Source of the DNA: Lachnospiraceae bacterium
GTDB lineage: Bacteria; Bacillota; Clostridia; Lachnospirales; Lachnospiraceae
Direction of reading: 5' to 3'
DNA length: 64,000 bases
NCBI GenBank assembly: GCA_015056765.1
Contig: SVFQ01000013.1
Span: 1-64,000 of the forward strand
Both the position numbers and the translations under genes were made by a program. Positions 11,120 through 20,020 of this stretch are shown here, in pieces; within the stretch, counting starts at the first letter, position 1; every line of letters starts with the position of its first letter. The notes under the pieces were generated by a model. That model had not been told where the DNA came from. It was given only the letters and a program-made list of their open reading frames with translations, and ran no database searches.

Positions 11120-12829
11120 ATGAAATGTCCTAATTGTGGCCAAGAGATAGCAGATGGCAGTAAGTTCTGTATCTTCTGCGGTACTGTAGTAGAAGAGAAA
11201 AAACCGGAACCTATAGTAGAGCCAGCTCCAGAACCAGTTGCAGAACCTGCACCAGAAGTAGAAGCTCCAAAGATGCAGAAGAAAGAAGTATGTAGCAACT
11301 GTGGTCAGGAACTTGCTCCAGGCGCTGTATTCTGCACAAATTGTGGAACAAAGAAAGGAGCAGCACCTGCTCCTGCACCAGCTCCAGAACCAAAGAAGGC
11401 TGTATGTGCTAACTGCGGCGCAGAATTGAAACCTGGCATGAAATTCTGTACCAATTGCGGTACCAAAGTAGGGGAGGCAGCCCCAGCAGCACCTAAGACT
11501 GTGCCAACACCTCCACCTGCAGCACCAAAAGCTGCACCAAAGCCAGCACCTGCTCCGGCACCACAGCCAGCACCTGCTCCGGCACCACAGAAACCTGCGA
11601 AAGCACCTAAGCCACCCAAGGCTCCAAAAGCTCCAAAGGCTCCGAAACAGCCAAAGGAGAAAAAAGGAAAAGGCGGACTCATCTTTTTAATCATTCTGCT
11701 GATTCTTGTACTATTAGTAGGTGGTGGATATTTCTATCTGTCTCAGGTACAGGGTGTGGATCCTATTGAATATGTCACCGGATTCTTCCAGAAAGACAAG
11801 AACGCTGACACTGAAGATGCGGACAAGGAAGAAGACAAAGAGGAAAAGAAGGATGCTACGGAAGCTTCTGAAAGCCAAGAAGCCGGTGAAGTAGACTTAG
11901 ACGAACTCTTTAAGGATACAGATGCTTCTTATGAAGAAGCTAAGAAACTGTATGACGAACAGTCCTATACAGAAGCAATCGATAAAGCAAAAGCAGCATT
12001 AGAAGAGTACACCAAATTAGCAGCTGACAATGAAGTAAAAGAAGGTGCTAAAGAAAGAGTACAGAATGCTTATAAAGTATACACAGATTCTATCATGGCT
12101 TATTCTGCTATCATCGAGCCTCAGAACATCGGTGCTGTAGGTTATGAGACTATGGCTGGTTATACAGCAGATGCAGATGCTTTGACGGAAAGCCTGAAAG
12201 CAGACTACGAAATCGATTCTGCAAACTATGAGCTTTACTCTCAGGGATTGGTAAATCGTTATCGTGACAAATACATCGCAGCCATCAATGACATCACCAA
12301 TAGAGAGCAGTGGTCCAGAGATGAAGCATGGTCTTGGGCTGAAGAAGCTTACTCCATCCAGAAAGATGGCAAGCTTGTGATGTTTGACGAAAGTCAGCTT
12401 GATGATCCACTGAGACTTCGTTATGTATATTGCCTTGCTTGGATTACCACCAAACGTTGTGAAACAGGTGTAGCAGATGGTAGCATGACTGCAGCAGACG
12501 CTGCAAACGCTATCGCAAGCATTTTGGCTGAAACAGATTACAACCCACTTTTGATTCAGGAATACATCAATTATGCTGCTGCAGCAGGTATGGATACCAG
12601 CAATGCACAGAGCGCATATAATGATGTAGTGAACGCACTGAAGACCTATCAGAATCTGTCTATTGTAACTACCGGTGTAAACTCTGGTACCAGCGTAGAT
12701 TTGAGACATTTCTGGTATTTCAATGACTTAGATGGAGAGGATCAGTACAAAGTCGATATCCACAACGGTACCACAAAAGAAACCCGTGAGTGGATTAGAA
12801 CGAACGTAGCTAAGTGGTTCGCACAGTAA
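11120..12829 (+). CDS. Triple zinc-ribbon, single-span membrane protein with helical C-terminal domain
   Basis: A 569-residue protein of unknown function. Three CxxC-x9-10-CxxC zinc ribbons lie near residues 3-22, 57-78 and 92-113, each ending in FCxxCG. They are followed by a Pro/Ala/Lys-rich linker, a single membrane span near residues 190-212, a very acidic linker (about 225-265) and a helix-rich region beginning like a TPR (YEEAKKLYDEQSYTEAIDKA). The C-terminal third has no family I recognise. The layout suggests zinc ribbons inside and the helical domain outside the membrane. AGAAGGGGAGAA supports the start. Its stop overlaps the start of the metallophosphoesterase gene, a strong hint of joint function. 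Confidence 0.72.
   Translation: MKCPNCGQEIADGSKFCIFCGTVVEEKKPEPIVEPAPEPVAEPAPEVEAPKMQKKEVCSNCGQELAPGAVFCTNCGTKKGAAPAPAPAPEPKKAVCANCGAELKPGMKFCTNCGTKVGEAAPAAPKTVPTPPPAAPKAAPKPAPAPAPQPAPAPAPQKPAKAPKPPKAPKAPKAPKQPKEKKGKGGLIFLIILLILVLLVGGGYFYLSQVQGVDPIEYVTGFFQKDKNADTEDADKEEDKEEKKDATEASESQEAGEVDLDELFKDTDASYEEAKKLYDEQSYTEAIDKAKAALEEYTKLAADNEVKEGAKERVQNAYKVYTDSIMAYSAIIEPQNIGAVGYETMAGYTADADALTESLKADYEIDSANYELYSQGLVNRYRDKYIAAINDITNREQWSRDEAWSWAEEAYSIQKDGKLVMFDESQLDDPLRLRYVYCLAWITTKRCETGVADGSMTAADAANAIASILAETDYNPLLIQEYINYAAAAGMDTSNAQSAYNDVVNALKTYQNLSIVTTGVNSGTSVDLRHFWYFNDLDGEDQYKVDIHNGTTKETREWIRTNVAKWFAQ
11543..11590 (+). repeat. Two perfect tandem copies of a 24-bp unit encoding a Pro/Ala-rich linker
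   Basis: The units 11543-11566 and 11567-11590 are identical and encode Pro-Ala-Pro-Ala-Pro-Ala-Pro-Gln repeats inside the cytosolic linker of the zinc-ribbon protein. Exact nucleotide identity suggests a recent in-frame duplication, so the linker may vary in length between strains. Confidence 0.75.
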
Positions 12830-14025
12830 TGAAACGCAGAAATAGAAGACAAAAAAGAAACTTAAAACAAGGTATTCTCATGGGAGCAGTGCTGGTATTA
12901 GCACTGCTTCTTGGGCTTACAATAGGAGCTCTTTTGACCAGAGAAAAAGAAGAGCAACCGGAAGAAACAGAGACGGAATCTCTATGGGAAACCGTAGAAG
13001 AGGAGCCAGAGACTGAAACCACAGAAGAGACGAAAGAGGCAAAGGATTACCCAGCACCGGTGTATCAGTTCCGTGAAGAAGAAGTGACTGTCGAGGTTGA
13101 GGGGTTAGAGAAAGAGTATACATTGGCCTTTGTCAATGATATCCACATGATATCTGATTTTGAAGCAGGCCCCGTTACCGAAGAATCTCTGCCCACTATT
13201 CAGCAGCGATACGATGAGATGTTCATCACCAATGATGGAAAAGGTATCCCATCTGTAGAACTTTGGCCTGAAATCGTGAAGTACCTCAATCATTATGATT
13301 TTGATGGAGTAATTTTCGCAGCCGACCTTTTGGACTATAGCAGCACCACAAATGTGCAGAAGCTAAAAGAAGGAATGGAGGAACTGAAGTATCCTTTGGA
13401 TAAAATGATGTATCTACGTTCCGACCATGACTATGGCGGATGGTATGGTGGTGAGGCCTATACAGATGATGATGGGGTAAAGGCACAGGAAGATATCTTA
13501 GGTGGAGATAGCATGGAGCAGGTGCTGGACTTTGGAGATTTCCAAGTGGTGGGTATCAATCGCTCTCACAAGAATATTTCTGCAGAACAACATGCCTTTA
13601 TCGATAAGCAGTTGGATAATGGAAAACCAACCATTATGGTAACGCATGTGCCATTTTATTCCGAAGTAGATGAGTCTTTATTAGATTTATCCATGCAAGT
13701 GAGAAATAAAATCTACTATTGGCACCCGCAAGCACCAAACTATGTGCCGGATGGAGAGACCCAGGGCCTTATTGATAGAATGTATCATGGAGATGCCAAT
13801 GTGGTAGAAATCCTGGGCGCCCACATTCACGCATCCTGGGATGGACAGGTGACGGATAGCCTTCGTGAGCATGTGTTTGGCCCTTGCTATCAGGGACAGA
13901 TTGGTATCGTACATGTGATTCCCAAGGGTGGAAAAGTGACGGTCAATATCCATGAAGGGGAAGAGACCGAAGAAGAAACAGAAGAAACAGAGACAGCTGA
14001 AACAGAAAGTACAGAGAGTAACTAA
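12829..14025 (+). CDS. Membrane-anchored metallophosphoesterase-like protein
   Basis: A calcineurin-like phosphoesterase fold behind an N-terminal basic stretch, one membrane span and a Glu/Thr-rich linker, so it should act outside the cell. Metal-site motifs appear in order: DIH (in VNDIHMI), AADLLD for the usual GDxxD, RSDHDYG where the usual GNHD is expected, THVPFY, and GAHIH. The Asn of GNHD is replaced by Asp, so metal binding or substrate choice may differ. The C-terminus is a Glu/Thr-rich tail of about 25 residues. The chosen ATG overlaps the previous stop (TAATG); an in-frame GTG at 12814 is less likely. The substrate is unknown. Confidence 0.75.
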   Translation: MKRRNRRQKRNLKQGILMGAVLVLALLLGLTIGALLTREKEEQPEETETESLWETVEEEPETETTEETKEAKDYPAPVYQFREEEVTVEVEGLEKEYTLAFVNDIHMISDFEAGPVTEESLPTIQQRYDEMFITNDGKGIPSVELWPEIVKYLNHYDFDGVIFAADLLDYSSTTNVQKLKEGMEELKYPLDKMMYLRSDHDYGGWYGGEAYTDDDGVKAQEDILGGDSMEQVLDFGDFQVVGINRSHKNISAEQHAFIDKQLDNGKPTIMVTHVPFYSEVDESLLDLSMQVRNKIYYWHPQAPNYVPDGETQGLIDRMYHGDANVVEILGAHIHASWDGQVTDSLREHVFGPCYQGQIGIVHVIPKGGKVTVNIHEGEETEEETEETETAETESTESN

Positions 14026-14029
14026 AACC

Positions 14030-15058
14030 ATGAACAAGATGATGAAAATAGGACGCGGCGCAGCAGCTATCTGCTTAGCAATCACAACTTTGTTGGCAGG
14101 AGTACTCACAGCCCCCATCACAGCTTATGCCGGTGAAGTAGCTCATATTGAGAAAAGTAAACCGGGAGATTTGATGCCTTATGATGCACCAAACCCTATT
14201 CCGGAAAGCTTTAATGTACCTACCCAGGTATTTGGTTATGGCGGAGAGTACTTTGTATTAGATGCCTATAATCAGCAGATTCTTCATAGTAAAAATGTGT
14301 ATAACGCACCGGAGAGTTGGAATGTCATGGGGAATAAGCTCTATAGACCTCATGCCCTTGCTACAGATGGCATACTTTATGTGGCGGTGGATACCGATAA
14401 TGATAGAGTCGTAACCTATGGAAAGAATGAAAAGGGCTTCCAGGTAGTGGAGACCTTTGAAGGGGTAGGCATCAGACCACACTATGTTACTTACGACCAA
14501 ACTACAGGATTTTTCTATGTTTGGAGTTCGATGACGGGTGTTATGTATCTATATCAGAGAGTACCAAACACCTTACAACTGCAGCTTGTAAAGGCAGTGC
14601 CAGTAGCGGATCTCTATGGGGCCTACACCAGAAGCTTTACCATCGATGGCAATTATATCTACTTCCCAAGTATGGGCAAAAATGCCATTTACGTGGTAGA
14701 TAAAAAGACCTTCAAACTCTTGGCAGTTTACCCGGTAGCACAGGAATTAGGTGGCATGGTACAGGTATTACATATCCAGAACTATTACTACCTGGTAACC
14801 AGCTCAGATGCGGCCGGTGACCAAAAGAAGCAGGCCTTTGTGCGATCTGCATCTTTAGCCGGATTCGTACCGGGAGGCTACGAAGATGCATCTGCTTTAA
14901 TGGGTGGCCTGGATGGCGTACCTTATTACATTACCCAGCTGGAAGATGGTAGATACTACACTCCGGTCATTATGGGGTACTACACATTACCTTATATCTG
15001 CAGATTTGAAATCGTGAATGATACCTTTACCAACGTGAAGCAGATGAAGTATAAATAA
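14030..15058 (+). CDS. Secreted propeller-like protein of unknown function
   Basis: The protein begins with a clear signal peptide (MNKMMKIGRGAAAICLAI, cleavage likely after the Ala-Tyr-Ala near residue 34). The mature part of about 310 residues is made of short beta-rich repeats with patterns such as FVLDAYNQQILH, LYVAVDTDNDRVVTYG and IYVVDKKTFKLLAVYP, which look like NHL/YncE-type propeller blades. The start chosen lies five bases after the metallophosphoesterase stop with AGAGAG upstream; a longer reading from 13952 would overlap that gene by 74 bases and bury the signal peptide. It follows the zinc-ribbon and phosphoesterase genes and is closed by a strong terminator, so the three look like one cassette. 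Confidence 0.7.
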   Translation: MNKMMKIGRGAAAICLAITTLLAGVLTAPITAYAGEVAHIEKSKPGDLMPYDAPNPIPESFNVPTQVFGYGGEYFVLDAYNQQILHSKNVYNAPESWNVMGNKLYRPHALATDGILYVAVDTDNDRVVTYGKNEKGFQVVETFEGVGIRPHYVTYDQTTGFFYVWSSMTGVMYLYQRVPNTLQLQLVKAVPVADLYGAYTRSFTIDGNYIYFPSMGKNAIYVVDKKTFKLLAVYPVAQELGGMVQVLHIQNYYYLVTSSDAAGDQKKQAFVRSASLAGFVPGGYEDASALMGGLDGVPYYITQLEDGRYYTPVIMGYYTLPYICRFEIVNDTFTNVKQMKYK

Positions 15059-15081
15059 GATTTTCGTAAACTGATTTAAGA

Positions 15082-15118
15082 AAGAGCAACTACAAAAATG
15101 TGGTTGCTCTTTTTCTTT
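15082..15118 (+). terminator. Strong intrinsic terminator after the propeller gene
   Basis: A 13-bp stem (15082-15094 with 15099-15111, AAAA loop, one wobble) leads directly into TTTTTCTTTT. It separates the zinc-ribbon/phosphoesterase/propeller cassette from the AAA+ cassette. Confidence 0.88.
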
Positions 15119-15255
15119 TGAAAACGCCGAAAAAAGGGCAGAAAATACAAAATAAGATGTTGAAGAATTGGAGGGTGCATGATATTATTTTAACAGATTG
15201 GTCCTAATGTAAATTGGCTGGACAATTTTAAAACTTAAGAAATGAGCATTTAGAA

Positions 15256-17373
15256 ATGACAGAGTGCGGTAGACTGATAGACATCATCGTAGAAACAGGA
15301 AACGGTGATCAAGACCTGATTGGTGCGGTGTTAGCCAGCGAGATGCTTCCGGTAGAGAAGTATGTTAGACTGCGTACCATCCGAGAGGGACAGGATAAGG
15401 TTGATATTGATTTTGCTTTAGCTTTGAGGGACGATTCTCCGAAACTGAAAGGGAAAGGCACAGCAACCTATGATCTGGGCAGACCACTACCGGAAGGCAC
15501 CCTTGTCATTTTTTGTTTGCAAATCGATGAGAATCACCACTTCAACACACGTATAGATGTGCCGGAATTCAAGATCAGCTCCAGCATGGAATTTGACCCG
15601 GATTGGTGGTCAGAAGAAACAGAAGCATGGCTGGCTGAAATGGATGTAGAAGCATGTCCACAAGGACAGACCCAGCAGGACACCGTAGAAGAATCCTATC
15701 AGGTACAGTGCTCCTTGCCGGAACTCATGGACCAATTGAATAGTTTGATTGGACTAAAGGAAGTTAAAGAGCAGGTACAAAAGCGTATCAATCAGGTAGA
15801 GGTAGAGCAGAAAGCCAGAGAAGCCGGTGCACAGCGCATCGGTGGTATCGGTAGCCTGCATATGCTTTTCACCGGTAACCCAGGTACAGGTAAGACCACC
15901 ATCGCTAGGATGTTAGGCCAGATGTATCAGCAACTGGGTGTTTTGCCAAATGGTTCTAAAGTGGTGGAATGCACCAGAGGTAATCTGGTGGGTATGTACC
16001 AGGGCCATAGTGCCAAAAATGTACAAGATAAGTTTGAAGAAGCAAAGGGCGGTATCCTTTTCATCGATGAGGCGTACTCCATTTGCAGAGATAGCAATGA
16101 TAACTTCGGACAGGAGACGATAGATGAAATCGTAGCCCAGATGGAGAATCACAGAGACTCTGTCATGGTAATCCTAGCCGGTTATGAGCGTGAGATGGAG
16201 GAGTTCCTACGGAAAAATTCCGGTCTCAGCAGTCGAATTCGTAATAAAATTACGTTCCCTGACTACAACGTGAAAGAGATGGTAGAGATTTTCAAACAGT
16301 TCTGCGTCGATAGACACATGAATCTGGAAGATGGATCAGATGCCATCCTAGAGAATCTCCTAAGCATCCAGAGTAAACAACCTGACTTTGGCAATGCACG
16401 TGGCGTGCGTAATCTATTTGAAGAAGTGCTGGAAAGTCAGAATGAGCGCATCATGCAGGAACTGGCAGAGGGTGCGGAGCTTACTTCTGCTGACTATGAC
16501 ACGATTCAAAAAGCAGACCTAGAAAAAGTGGCCGGAGAGAATCTAAAGGAAGAAAAGACCATCGATGACCTGCTGACAGAGATGAATGCACTGGTAGGTC
16601 TCTCTGAGGCAAAAGCCAAGATTCAGGAGATGGTAGATAATATCCAGGTGCGTCAGGTCATGAAGCAGAGAGGCATGGCAGTACCGGAGGACCATGGTAC
16701 CTTGCATCTGATTTTTACAGGAAATGCGGGAACCGGAAAGACCAGTCTGGCTAGACTTCTTGGAGAAATCTACACCAAACTTGGTGTATTGCAGAAAAAT
16801 ACCTTCGTAGAGGTCAGCAGAGCAGACCTGGTGGGACAGTATCAGGGACATACTGCACAGCTGGTTATGAATAAATTAGAGGAAGCCGATGGCGGTATCC
16901 TCTTTATCGATGAAGCTTATACCCTGACCAATGGTGACAACGATAACTTCGGACAGGAAGCCATCCAAACCTTGGTGGCTGAGTTAGAGAATCGACGTAG
17001 CCATTTGATGGTGATTTTAGCCGGCTATCCAAAGGAAATGAGTGAGTTCCTGAATGTGAATTCCGGACTGGCCAGTAGACTATCCAATGAAGTTTACTTC
17101 GCAGACTATACGCCGGAGGAACTGACCAAAATCTTTTTCCATATGGCAAAGAAGCGAGGCCTCATGGTGGATGAATTGCCGGAGGACCAGGTTCGAGAGT
17201 GGATTGTTTCTCACAAGGAGAACCAGCGTGACTTTGGTAATGCCAGAGGGGTGCGTAACCTCTTAGATACCGCGATGCGCAAAAAAGACAGCCGTATCGC
17301 AGCTATGATCCGCAATGGCGAAGCACTGACGGATGAGGCAATCACCATGCTGACAGTGGAAGATTTACAATAG
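15256..17373 (+). CDS. Tandem CbxX/SpoVK-type AAA+ ATPase with a beta-rich N-terminal domain
   Basis: A 705-residue cytosolic protein with two complete AAA+ modules of the CbxX/CfxQ/SpoVK family. Module 1 (about 160-410) has Walker A GNPGTGKTT (about 206) and Walker B GGILFIDEA (about 265). Module 2 (about 440-690) has GNAGTGKTS (about 489) and GGILFIDEA (about 546). Both carry pore-type YQGH segments and sensor/arginine regions (GLSSRIR, GLASRLS). Residues 1-115 form a beta-rich region whose spacing (VDIDFALALRDDS, then ATYDLGRPLPEG) recalls the Hsp70 substrate-binding sandwich; that link is tentative. No good ribosome binding site precedes the ATG. The small Sel1-like gene follows 18 bases later. 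A remodelling or chaperone role is inferred. Confidence 0.82.
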   Translation: MTECGRLIDIIVETGNGDQDLIGAVLASEMLPVEKYVRLRTIREGQDKVDIDFALALRDDSPKLKGKGTATYDLGRPLPEGTLVIFCLQIDENHHFNTRIDVPEFKISSSMEFDPDWWSEETEAWLAEMDVEACPQGQTQQDTVEESYQVQCSLPELMDQLNSLIGLKEVKEQVQKRINQVEVEQKAREAGAQRIGGIGSLHMLFTGNPGTGKTTIARMLGQMYQQLGVLPNGSKVVECTRGNLVGMYQGHSAKNVQDKFEEAKGGILFIDEAYSICRDSNDNFGQETIDEIVAQMENHRDSVMVILAGYEREMEEFLRKNSGLSSRIRNKITFPDYNVKEMVEIFKQFCVDRHMNLEDGSDAILENLLSIQSKQPDFGNARGVRNLFEEVLESQNERIMQELAEGAELTSADYDTIQKADLEKVAGENLKEEKTIDDLLTEMNALVGLSEAKAKIQEMVDNIQVRQVMKQRGMAVPEDHGTLHLIFTGNAGTGKTSLARLLGEIYTKLGVLQKNTFVEVSRADLVGQYQGHTAQLVMNKLEEADGGILFIDEAYTLTNGDNDNFGQEAIQTLVAELENRRSHLMVILAGYPKEMSEFLNVNSGLASRLSNEVYFADYTPEELTKIFFHMAKKRGLMVDELPEDQVREWIVSHKENQRDFGNARGVRNLLDTAMRKKDSRIAAMIRNGEALTDEAITMLTVEDLQ

Positions 17374-17391
17374 GCGTTTGGAGGATAAAAG

Positions 17392-17748
17392 ATGGCAAGG
17401 GAAAATGGAGTTACCTACGACATCATATTGGAAAATGGTTTAGATGGATATGAAGCCTTTGATACAGGCCTGGATTATTACCAGGGTGAAAATGGAAAGC
17501 CACAGGACTATGCCCAGGCAAAGTATCTATTTGAACAAGCAGCAAAGTATCACATCGCCAATGCTTGCGGCATGTTAGGCGGCATGGCGGAAGACGGCAT
17601 TTTGCTAACTGCACCGGATTTGGCACAGGCTTTATCTTGGTACGAACTGGCTTATCGTTATGGAAATGATGAAGCGACTGATGATATAGATCGGGTAAAA
17701 ACTGCTATGAGTAGACCCGCTTTTCATACAAAAAAATCATTCTTTTAG
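17392..17748 (+). CDS. Small Sel1-like repeat protein
   Basis: A 118-residue protein with two Sel1-like helix pairs: ALA-rich stretches DYAQAKYLFEQAAKYHIANA and DLAQALSWYELAYRYGNDEA carry the A-x-x-W/L-F/Y-x-x-A pattern of these repeats. Such repeats bind partner proteins. There is no signal peptide or membrane span. A TTGGAGGAT site lies just before the ATG. It sits between the AAA+ gene and two PH-like membrane proteins, the second of which contains its own Sel1 repeat, so it may be an adaptor in that group. Confidence 0.65.
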   Translation: MARENGVTYDIILENGLDGYEAFDTGLDYYQGENGKPQDYAQAKYLFEQAAKYHIANACGMLGGMAEDGILLTAPDLAQALSWYELAYRYGNDEATDDIDRVKTAMSRPAFHTKKSFF

Positions 17749-17757
17749 GAGGGAAAC

Positions 17758-18267
17758 ATGGAGTTTCTAGTAAAATTAGCCCTATTTATAGCGGCGATTG
17801 TCTTTTTCTACAAAGGCTCTAAGTACAAAACAAAACCGGAGAAGATCAATCAGAAGGACATCAATCCGCAGTGTGATTGGGTTCAGAAGATGCGCGATGC
17901 AGAGACTCAGAAATCAAGAGTATGTGGCCTGAATCCACAGTTTAGGGATTTGGAATTCTTATATTCCATCCATAATCAGTCGGATAGTAGTGTCATTATG
18001 ACTAATAGAGGCTTTCTCTATACACAGCAGAAAGTTTTAATTCCATATCAGAGTATCAATTCCTATCGTTTTGATAAGGTGATAATTACCAATAATCATA
18101 ACAATGGCATCACATCTACCAGCAATAACCAGTATTGGAAGAAATTCCGATTTGAGTATTACACGGATGACGGTCAGTTGAATTCAGCGGACTTTAATAT
18201 CAGAACAGAAGAAGTAGCTGTATTTACAGATATGTTTATGACTATTATGAGACAGGTACAGGGTTAG
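17758..18267 (+). CDS. Small membrane protein with PH-like domain
   Basis: A 169-residue protein with one N-terminal membrane span (about 1-20), a basic stretch, then a beta-rich domain (about 70-165). The segment VIMTNRGFLYTQQKVLIPYQSINSY has the pattern of bacterial PH-like domains, in which a turn reading is followed by an I-P-Y/W-x-x-I strand. It resembles the N-terminal part of the next protein, so the two are likely paralogues. GGAGGG precedes the ATG by a few bases. Function unknown. Confidence 0.6.
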   Translation: MEFLVKLALFIAAIVFFYKGSKYKTKPEKINQKDINPQCDWVQKMRDAETQKSRVCGLNPQFRDLEFLYSIHNQSDSSVIMTNRGFLYTQQKVLIPYQSINSYRFDKVIITNNHNNGITSTSNNQYWKKFRFEYYTDDGQLNSADFNIRTEEVAVFTDMFMTIMRQVQG

Positions 18268-18276
18268 GAGGAACAC

Positions 18277-19923
18277 ATGGCTTTACTAATTATTCTATTG
18301 ATAGCTTCCCTAGTGTTCTATTTCACTAGAAAAAAAGCAGCCGAAAAATATATGTATCCCTATGAACTAAGGATGATCAACGAAGGTGGACATGATGAAA
18401 CCCAAACTACTTTAGACTGGGTTCGTAATTTCCTTGGTAATCCGGGATTATTTTTTACTGTACTGGATACAGATGCTAAAGAGGTGGTGTTTACTGACTA
18501 TGGTATTGCCATCAGAGGAAAAGGACTTATCCCTTATAACACCATCCAGTCCATTAGTGACCCAAAGGTACGAAATGATGCCAACGTGAAAGATAGCGGA
18601 TGGTTCCGTTATGTCACCGTTACTTTGAAGGATAAGAAACAGCTTACTTTCACTTTTTTGAATGTCAAAGGTAACTCCTTTGCCGGTATGATTCGCAATA
18701 TCCAGACATATGGCGTGCCGAGACAGGGCGTTGAATATGTAGAAAATGACGCTATTTTAGCAGATGGTACTTATACAGCACCTGTACAGGTACAGCAGCC
18801 TACCTCAACACCAGCACCAGCGCCACAGCCAGTTGCGCCTGTGCCACAGCCGGTAGCACCAGCGCCACAGGCTGAAGCTATGACCAGAACTCCACAGATT
18901 GTGGAGCCTGTACCTGCACCTCAGCCAGCACCAGTAGTTGAGAAACCTAGCATCCAGACCCTGGATAACGGACTTCCTATGGTACGAGCTACAGGAAATC
19001 CACAGGTAGATGAGCATTTACAGAAAGCATACGCAGGAGATGTAGTGTCTCAGCGTATTTTAGGTATCATGTATGCCAACGGACAGGAAGTAGAAAAAAA
19101 CGAAGAAATCGCCAAATGCTTCCTGAGAGTGGCAGCAGCACAGGGTGACCAACCTGCTAAGAATGTATTATCTGTATTAGAAGAAGCTGCACCTGCACCT
19201 ACTCCGACTCCTGCAGCACCGTCACCTGCACCAGTACCTACACCACAGCCAGCGCAGCCAGTACAACCGGTTCAGCCACAGCAGCCGGTACAGCCAAAAG
19301 CAACCAGACAGGCAGACCCTACTTACAGCCCATGGGGTACCATGAACCTAGTTTTAGGTGGAATTGGTTCCGTTGCAATCGCATTAGCTGTTTATCTGAT
19401 TATTCAGGGTGGCATGTCAGAAGAGGCGGCAAAGACGATGGGTATTCTTGCTGTAGGTATTGCAGCAGCTGCTTGGCTTTTTGTACGTAATCTGAAACTG
19501 GGTGATATGAAGAAGACCATTTTAAACACCCTATTTGCTGTTTTGCTTGGAGGCGTGCTTTTTGCTGTGACATTTGTACTTTGGCTTTTGCGCAACATAG
19601 GTTTTGGTATTGCAATAGCTACAGGTGGAGGCGCAAAATATAAATCCTTTGTAAGCACCATGAATCTCCTCTTGAAACCATTTCAGGGAAAGATGGTAAG
19701 CCCAAGCGACTATAGAAGTGGTGACAGCTATGATTTTAGCGCTGGCGATTACCAAATGCCTACAGGCAGTGAATCCGGCACTCAGCCTCAGGGTTATGAA
19801 TTCTCCAAAGAAGAGGATGTGAATGCCCAGATGCTTGGCTATGCGGATGCACAGCAGTATCAGGATTTGACCGGTTATAGCGGACACAACATCGACCCTA
19901 ATGATGACTATCTGAAAAACTAA
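18277..19923 (+). CDS. Multidomain membrane protein: PH-like domain, Pro-rich linkers, Sel1 repeat, membrane spans
   Basis: A 548-residue protein of unknown function. In order: N-terminal membrane span (1-16), PH-like domain (about 60-150, with VVFTDYGIAIRGKGLIPYNTI), a Pro/Gln/Ala-rich linker (about 170-230), a Sel1-like unit (about 240-305, AYAGDVVSQRILGIMYANG), a second Pro-rich linker, three hydrophobic segments (about 355-450) and a polar C-terminal tail. It combines the folds of its two upstream neighbours in one chain. AGGAGG precedes the start. A terminator follows directly, closing the cassette. Confidence 0.65.
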   Translation: MALLIILLIASLVFYFTRKKAAEKYMYPYELRMINEGGHDETQTTLDWVRNFLGNPGLFFTVLDTDAKEVVFTDYGIAIRGKGLIPYNTIQSISDPKVRNDANVKDSGWFRYVTVTLKDKKQLTFTFLNVKGNSFAGMIRNIQTYGVPRQGVEYVENDAILADGTYTAPVQVQQPTSTPAPAPQPVAPVPQPVAPAPQAEAMTRTPQIVEPVPAPQPAPVVEKPSIQTLDNGLPMVRATGNPQVDEHLQKAYAGDVVSQRILGIMYANGQEVEKNEEIAKCFLRVAAAQGDQPAKNVLSVLEEAAPAPTPTPAAPSPAPVPTPQPAQPVQPVQPQQPVQPKATRQADPTYSPWGTMNLVLGGIGSVAIALAVYLIIQGGMSEEAAKTMGILAVGIAAAAWLFVRNLKLGDMKKTILNTLFAVLLGGVLFAVTFVLWLLRNIGFGIAIATGGGAKYKSFVSTMNLLLKPFQGKMVSPSDYRSGDSYDFSAGDYQMPTGSESGTQPQGYEFSKEEDVNAQMLGYADAQQYQDLTGYSGHNIDPNDDYLKN

Positions 19924-19935
19924 TTATTGATATTG

Positions 19936-19984
19936 AAGAGGCTAAAGAGTTTTGCAGTTCGCAATTCTCTTAGCCTCTTTTTAT
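19936..19984 (+). terminator. Intrinsic terminator closing the AAA+ cassette
   Basis: AAGAGGCTAA (19936-19945) pairs with TTAGCCTCTT (19970-19979); an inner AGAGTTTTGC/GCAATTCTCT segment lengthens the helix. The stem runs directly into TTTTTATT. Confidence 0.88.
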
Positions 19985-20020
19985 TATGAATGCAACGTTT
20001 CGGTTTTGCGAAAAAAACGA

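Follow-up and report, generated by a model that had tools for sequence, protein, structure and literature searches.

A window of 64,000 nucleotides was analysed computationally (positions 1 to 64,000 of contig SVFQ01000013.1, assembly GCA_015056765.1, from a Lachnospiraceae bacterium). It contains a cassette of four closely spaced genes, g1 to g4, encoding a tandem AAA+ ATPase, a small Sel1-like protein and two putative membrane proteins (Table 1). An initial annotation of the cassette had overlooked two features. The ATPase, g1, very probably begins with the β-type substrate-binding domain of an Hsp70 (SBD-β), and the closest relatives of g1 are encoded immediately downstream of a lidless Hsp70. 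The picture thereby shifts from an AAA+ ATPase acting via Sel1 proteins to one in which Hsp70-type client capture would be coupled to AAA+ remodelling. We consider the cassette to be, with reasonable probability, a derived, species-restricted and membrane-tethered member of a chaperone module found in Lachnospiraceae and related Clostridia. This module is made up of Hsp70, a tandem CbbX-clade AAA+ protein and Sel1 proteins, and in the cassette the SBD would be fused to the remodeller.

Table 1. Features of the cassette and its borders (positions in the window)
Feature	Position	Strand	Description
Terminator, upstream border	15082-15118	+	Rho-independent terminator of the preceding unit; from RNA fold
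Possible promoter	15160-15188	+	TTGAAG-17-TATTAT, TG before -10; consensus match only
g1	15256-17373	+	705 residues; N-terminus resembling an Hsp70 SBD, then tandem SpoVK/CbbX-clade AAA+ ATPase
g1 N-terminal domain	15268-15645	+	~Residues 5-130; Hsp70 SBD-β-like sandwich, then short helix
g1 AAA domain 1 with lid	15739-16527	+	Residues 162-424; Walker A GNPGTGKT, ILFIDEA, GY, Asn-4-Arg finger, FGNARGVRN
g1 AAA domain 2 with lid	16585-17370	+	Residues 444-705; Walker A GNAGTGKT, ILFIDEA, GY, Asn-4-Arg finger, FGNARGVRN
g2	17392-17748	+	118 residues; small free protein, two Sel1-like repeats (29.7 bits, cut-off 30.7)
g3	17758-18267	+	169 residues; one N-terminal transmembrane (TM) helix, then predicted PH-superfold domain
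g4	18277-19923	+	548 residues; N-terminal TM helix, putative PH-like region, Pro/Ala/Gln-rich linkers, one Sel1-like repeat, C-terminal hydrophobic cluster, hydrophilic tail
Terminator, downstream border	19936-19984	+	Rho-independent terminator; from RNA fold

The N-terminal domain of g1

The sequence of the N-terminal region of g1 gave no match to the chains of the Protein Data Bank (PDB), and its kinship was revealed only by profile and fold searches. On inspection by eye, the region looked similar to the C-terminal portions of the Hsp70s that adjoin the AAA genes of relatives. A profile was built from the substrate-binding parts of nine of these neighbouring Hsp70s and searched against 551 proteins, comprising those of the window and of the loci fetched for comparison. 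g1 ranked first among the proteins that are not Hsp70s, with an E-value of 0.009 (0.13 for the next protein). The match is colinear along most of the N-terminal domain. Residues 1-150 scored 13.3 bits against the profile, a value reached by none of 2000 shuffled sequences (best score, 7.0 bits).

An AlphaFold2 model of residues 1-150, calculated without an alignment, features a seven-stranded sandwich and a helix (pLDDT 55). When this model was compared to the PDB using Foldseek, the top 50 matches were almost all Hsp70, DnaK or HscA structures (probability 0.87-0.99); no Hsp70 information had been provided as input. Residues 1 to ~130 of g1 are thus very probably an Hsp70 SBD-β, an assignment that falls short of proof because the confidence of the model is low.

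g1 has neither the nucleotide-binding domain of Hsp70 (PF00012 is not among the matches listed for g1) nor the Hsp70 lid, and the 197 bases upstream of g1 contain no reading frame for a nucleotide-binding domain. The Hsp70s encoded in this genome are of two full-length types, and no lidless copy was seen.

The AAA+ domains of g1

The initial annotation had described g1 as a double CbxX/SpoVK ATPase, and this description stands: Pfam recognises two AAA domains and two AAA_lid_6 domains, and the best NCBIfam models are those of SpoVK, CbbX and EccA. TIGR02881 scored 485.5 bits, which is above its cut-off and is a sum over the two domains. Both AAA rings carry intact motifs. The GY signature of sensor 1 is present as LAGY at residues 307 and 588, an asparagine precedes the first arginine finger in NSGLSSR and NSGLASR, and the sensor 2 arginine finger is found in FGNARGVRN at residues 378 and 660. 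A GY at sensor 1, an asparagine near the first arginine finger and the retention of a second arginine finger are the defining features of the SpoVK-CbbX-EccA clade (Delerue et al., PMC10659427), and g1 belongs to this clade. Each of its known members is a dedicated chaperone that works without a peptidase partner, and the N-terminal recruitment domain varies and is swapped among them (PMC10659427).

We rejected a closer identity with each of the three proteins that give the clade its name. g1 is not an orthologue of SpoVK, because it has two AAA domains, both placed outside the SpoVK group in our tree, and because another gene, which is SpoVK-like, is present elsewhere in the genome (L078). 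It is not CbbX, as there is no Rubisco gene near the cassette. Finally, it is not EccA or another partner of a type VII secretion system (T7SS), as no EssC/EccC was found in the genome (84% complete assembly); the sole match in the EssC search was FtsK-like and scored 101.6 bits against a cut-off of 778.

Hsp70 and Sel1 proteins in the operons of relatives

The closest relatives of g1 share 46-57% sequence identity with it over both AAA domains and come from other genera of the same family and from one other family of the class. A lidless Hsp70, consisting of a nucleotide-binding domain and an SBD-β, is encoded immediately upstream on the same strand in nine of the nine clade relatives that could be checked (the eight closest and L069). 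L097 starts at a contig end and was left out of this count. The lidless Hsp70s have ~495 residues, or 441 in L124, where the gene lies at a contig end. Around 30 less related loci with tandem or single AAA genes have no adjacent Hsp70, except for a fusion in L071; the Hsp70 gene of L079 is six genes away. In the phylogenetic tree, the first AAA domain of g1 groups with the first domains of the Hsp70-linked AAA proteins (support 99/96) and the second with their second domains (100/99). The 19-row clade of Hsp70-linked AAA proteins has a support of 100/99. At the g1 locus itself there is no lidless Hsp70 gene directly upstream; instead, the SBD-like domain is fused to g1.

Most of the Hsp70-AAA operons have genes for Sel1-repeat proteins close to the AAA gene, and some of these Sel1 proteins have C-terminal membrane helices, like g4. 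In L124, LRR and TPR-like repeats are found in place of Sel1. There are also two informative fusions: a 1085-residue protein in which a full Hsp70 is fused to two CbbX-clade AAA domains (L071:7380-10637), and a 1113-residue protein in which six Sel1 repeats are fused to two CbbX-clade AAA domains (L068:14694-18035). Shared operons and fusions thus link Hsp70, tandem AAA and Sel1 to one another. The initial annotation had proposed a remodelling ATPase that acts on membrane clients via Sel1. The pairing of the ATPase with Sel1 is backed by the related operons and by the Sel1-AAA-AAA fusion, but the proposal had no place for Hsp70.

Two further observations concern these operons. A family of proteins of ~155-205 residues, which carry an 'LRxPRS' motif and share a conserved C-terminal half, was seen only beside Hsp70-AAA genes (L064:9619-10086, L065:9986-10450, L066:10381-10989, L096:4608-5162 and L124:6333-6953); those tested had no match in Pfam, NCBIfam or PADLOC. 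Enlarged Hsp70-AAA operons with several Sel1/LRR (BspA-type) and membrane proteins are present in L067:7468-18622 and L069:1-13358, the latter also encoding a PP2C phosphatase.

The partner proteins g2, g3 and g4

Sel1 repeats had been assigned initially to both g2 and g4. Sel1-like stretches are indeed present in the two proteins, but the two of g2 are just under the Pfam cut-off (Table 1) and that of g4 is weak (E-value 0.0068, 17.4 bits). The repeats appear to be degenerate, because a genome-wide scan for Sel1 at an E-value of 1e-3 returned no matches, the stretches of the cassette included. There is no BLASTP similarity between g2 and g4.

g3 and g4 had both been called PH-like membrane proteins. 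g3 gave a match to bPH_3 that is below the cut-off (E-value 0.0036, Pfam). Its predicted structure has seven strands and a C-terminal helix (pLDDT 57, low confidence), and the Foldseek matches of this model in the PDB are Rtt106, SSRP1, FERM-F3, PTB and PH domains. Judging from the predicted fold, the assignment of g3 to the PH superfold is well supported. The case of g4 rests on its resemblance to g3. The N-terminus of g4 has no Pfam PH match; it is 27% identical to g3, with 'LIPY..I.S' in common, a similarity that was equalled by 13 of 2000 shuffled sequences and is not significant in BLASTP. A PH-like N-terminus of g4 is therefore weakly suggested.

Borders, setting and distribution of the cassette

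All four open reading frames are on the + strand, as initially described, and are separated by gaps of 18, 9 and 9 bases (g1/g2, g2/g3 and g3/g4, respectively). Clear and strong Shine-Dalgarno sequences precede g2, g3 and g4; none is clear before g1. The terminators bordering the cassette are hairpins with T-runs. Neither was detected by a simple terminator scan, and both were detected by RNA folding in comparison with shuffled sequences: the region 15080-15122 folds with -20.0 kcal/mol (z-score -6.8) and the region 19932-19990 with -24.8 kcal/mol (z-score -5.9), and in each case none of 200 shuffled sequences was as stable. Given the gaps, the Shine-Dalgarno sites and flanking hairpins that beat shuffled sequences, the four-gene unit is real and well bounded. 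Its initial description as closely spaced genes enclosed by terminators is supported, as is a single transcription unit. Promoter-like matches, such as the one upstream of g1 (Table 1), are about as frequent in the window as in shuffled sequence.

The surroundings of the cassette are of a housekeeping nature: aspS, hisS, a zinc-ribbon membrane protein, a phosphoesterase, an SDR protein, a CNNM-CBS protein and secDF (aspS, hisS and secDF being named from sequence). A protein encoded at window 11120-12829 starts with three zinc ribbons, which are followed by a linker rich in Pro, Ala and Lys and by a single TM helix; a similar-looking zinc-ribbon protein adjoins groES-groEL in the same genome (L078:858-3233). 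The longest reading frame at window 13952-15058 overlaps the preceding gene, which ends at 14025, by 74 bases, making an internal start likely.

The four genes had been expected to stay together in related genomes. This expectation failed: the exact set was not found in 60 relatives or in 397 genomes of the same family, so that only a single genome is currently known to carry the cassette. Such a failure was one of the two outcomes that the initial annotation had named as refuting its reading, although the wider Hsp70-AAA-Sel1 linkage supports its central idea that a remodeller works with Sel1 partners. No real homologue of g3 or g4 was found in the 60 relatives; two matches to g4 are low-complexity, within the Pro-rich stretch. 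The 397 genomes were searched with the g1 N-terminal domain, g3 and the PH and C-terminal pieces of g4 as a joined query, which can lose weak matches, and no homologue was found. Two genomes of the same genus, both incomplete (76-77%), are without the set. No relative of g1 or g3 was found on viral contigs, and plasmids and phages yielded only AAA relatives of <60% identity. A comparison with those members of the same genus and family that we read showed no clean empty site, because their flanking regions are rearranged.

Proposed mechanism and alternative explanations

In the relatives, the lidless Hsp70 presumably passes clients to the tandem or triple AAA+ protein encoded downstream of it. 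In the cassette, which has no separate Hsp70, the SBD-β-like domain at the N-terminus of the AAA+ protein would take its place. We infer that six g1 subunits assemble into a double ring, in which the SBD-like domains may grip an extended segment of the client and pass it on to pores powered by the two tiers of ATPase domains. As there is no peptidase, the client is likely to be remodelled or activated, like the clients of CbbX and SpoVK, and not degraded. g2 could act as a soluble Sel1 adaptor. With their TM helices and PH-like regions, and a Sel1-like repeat in the case of g4, g3 and g4 may dock the ring at the membrane; alternatively, they may themselves be membrane-bound clients or receptors. 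A broader proposal, to which we would give an even chance, is that the cassette and its relatives represent an undescribed class of bacterial chaperones, in which a two-tier AAA+ machine of the CbbX type, with Sel1 adaptors, is permanently coupled to client capture by Hsp70. Its usual form would be the Hsp70-AAA-Sel1 operon, and its form here an SBD-AAA-AAA fusion that PH-like proteins recruit to the membrane.

Several observations weigh against an SBD-fused, membrane-tethered member of the Hsp70-AAA-Sel1 module. Residues 1 to ~130 of g1 match no Pfam family, their sequence identity to Hsp70 SBDs is ~14-20%, and the low-confidence model gave Foldseek E-values of 0.005-0.05 and TM-scores of 0.3-0.45. 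With an assembly completeness of 84%, a lidless Hsp70 could lie elsewhere in the genome. The Hsp70 operons contain nothing that corresponds to g3 or to the PH part of g4, and as the four-gene set was found in this genome only, its selection as a unit is unproven. The marginal sequence score and the low model confidence also speak for the N-terminus of g1 being an unrelated β-domain that only resembles an SBD, in which case g1 would simply be a chaperone of the SpoVK/CbbX kind whose recruitment domain is new, Hsp70 having been lost; other members of the clade do have various N-terminal β-domains (PMC10659427). We think this very unlikely, given that a fold search without Hsp70 input placed almost only Hsp70s in the top ranks, that the shuffle and rank controls favour an SBD, and that, with Hsp70 genes linked to the closest relatives, the domain is most simply explained by an SBD fusion.

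The main rival explanation is that g1 is an envelope assembly chaperone in the sense of EccA or SpoVK. g3 and g4 would then be dedicated clients, which g1 activates or assembles, or g1 would assemble a surface export device, and the Sel1 repeats and the SBD would confer specificity only. Each known member of the clade serves a single dedicated target, which in many cases lies in the envelope (PMC10659427), and g3 and g4 are membrane proteins encoded in the same unit as g1 and nowhere else that was sampled, as expected of lineage-specific clients. Against this, the T7SS protein EssC has only a sub-threshold, FtsK-like match in the genome, which argues against an EccA/T7SS partner, SpoVK is encoded separately, and the relatives in Hsp70 operons have no g3-like partner. 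On this evidence we regard the envelope chaperone as unlikely. A further alternative is a system for defence or for setting a stress threshold, in which the chaperone would restrain g4 as a membrane-active effector until triggered; its models would be the AAA+/chaperone conflict systems described by Kaur et al. 2020 or the SpoVK-containing CoCoNuT III-A extensions. The housekeeping setting is not that of a defence island, the cassette has no effector domain, nuclease, vWA or MoxR, no relative was found on viral contigs, and PADLOC returned generic AAA similarity (IetA, ~52 bits) and no specific match. These points make a defence role quite improbable, despite the logic of a chaperone paired with a membrane effector, the patchy distribution, the occurrence of Hsp70s and SpoVK-like AAA proteins in conflict systems (PMC7159879, PMC11090510), and the presence of a GIY-YIG nuclease gene or of a PP2C phosphatase in the neighbourhood of some relatives.

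Comparison with known systems

The transfer of clients from Hsp70 to AAA+ proteins is of central interest, and DnaK-ClpB has provided most of what is known about it. g1 resembles that pair in that a putative client-gripping β-domain is combined with a two-tier AAA+ ring, and in that its relatives encode an Hsp70 beside the AAA gene. It differs in lacking a nucleotide-binding domain and lid, and in having AAA domains of the CbbX clade rather than the ClpB type. With the SpoVK/CbbX/EccA clade (PMC10659427), g1 shares the Walker A and B motifs, the sensor 1 and arginine finger signatures, the lack of a peptidase partner and a variable N-terminal recruitment domain, but it has two AAA domains per chain, an Hsp70-SBD-like N-terminus and Sel1- and PH-like membrane partners. 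The Hsp70-AAA-Sel1 operons and fusion (L063-L067, L069, L071, L095, L096 and L124) have related first and second AAA domains, those of L071 being more distant, and most of the operons include Sel1. They encode a whole lidless Hsp70, mostly a TPR or divergent AAA N-terminus on the AAA protein, and often the ~155-residue 'LRxPRS' protein, whereas in the cassette their place is taken by the SBD fusion, g3 and the PH part of g4. The CoCoNuT III-A extensions and Hsp70 conflict systems (PMC11090510, PMC7159879) likewise combine tandem SpoVK-like AAA domains, or nucleotide-binding and SBD parts of Hsp70, in multi-gene systems. However, the cassette has no McrBC, vWA, CARF or nuclease, and both AAA domains of g1 look active, compared with only the C-terminal one in CoCoNuT.

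We found no description of an Hsp70-CbbX-Sel1 system in open-licence papers, the nearest being the conflict systems cited above. If our interpretation is correct, an evolutionarily separate pairing of Hsp70 with a CbbX-clade AAA+ protein, complete with natural fusions (L071 and g1), would provide a second solution to compare with DnaK-ClpB, and would help in approaching the SpoVK/CbbX/EccA clade, which is target-specific and poorly understood. A fusion of the SBD only would suggest that client capture can work without the ATPase switch of Hsp70. The linkage rule, a lidless Hsp70 directly upstream, is simple to test across databases.

Other AAA+ cassettes

A second conserved cassette around an AAA gene was observed in seven Clostridia genomes from several families (L126, L127, L128, L129, L100, L070 and L099). 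It encodes a multi-AAA SpoVK-like protein of 900-1500 residues, a ~150-residue protein with four to five TM helices and a ~200-residue protein, mostly with one TM helix; in some genomes a membrane protein of the DUF4236 type is encoded upstream, an assignment that was tested with Pfam in L129. In two Bacteroidota loci (L056:5227-9049 and L058:1376-5459), a zinc-ribbon gene and a gene for what looks by eye like a PP2C-type phosphatase lie downstream of a tandem AAA gene of the CbbX clade.

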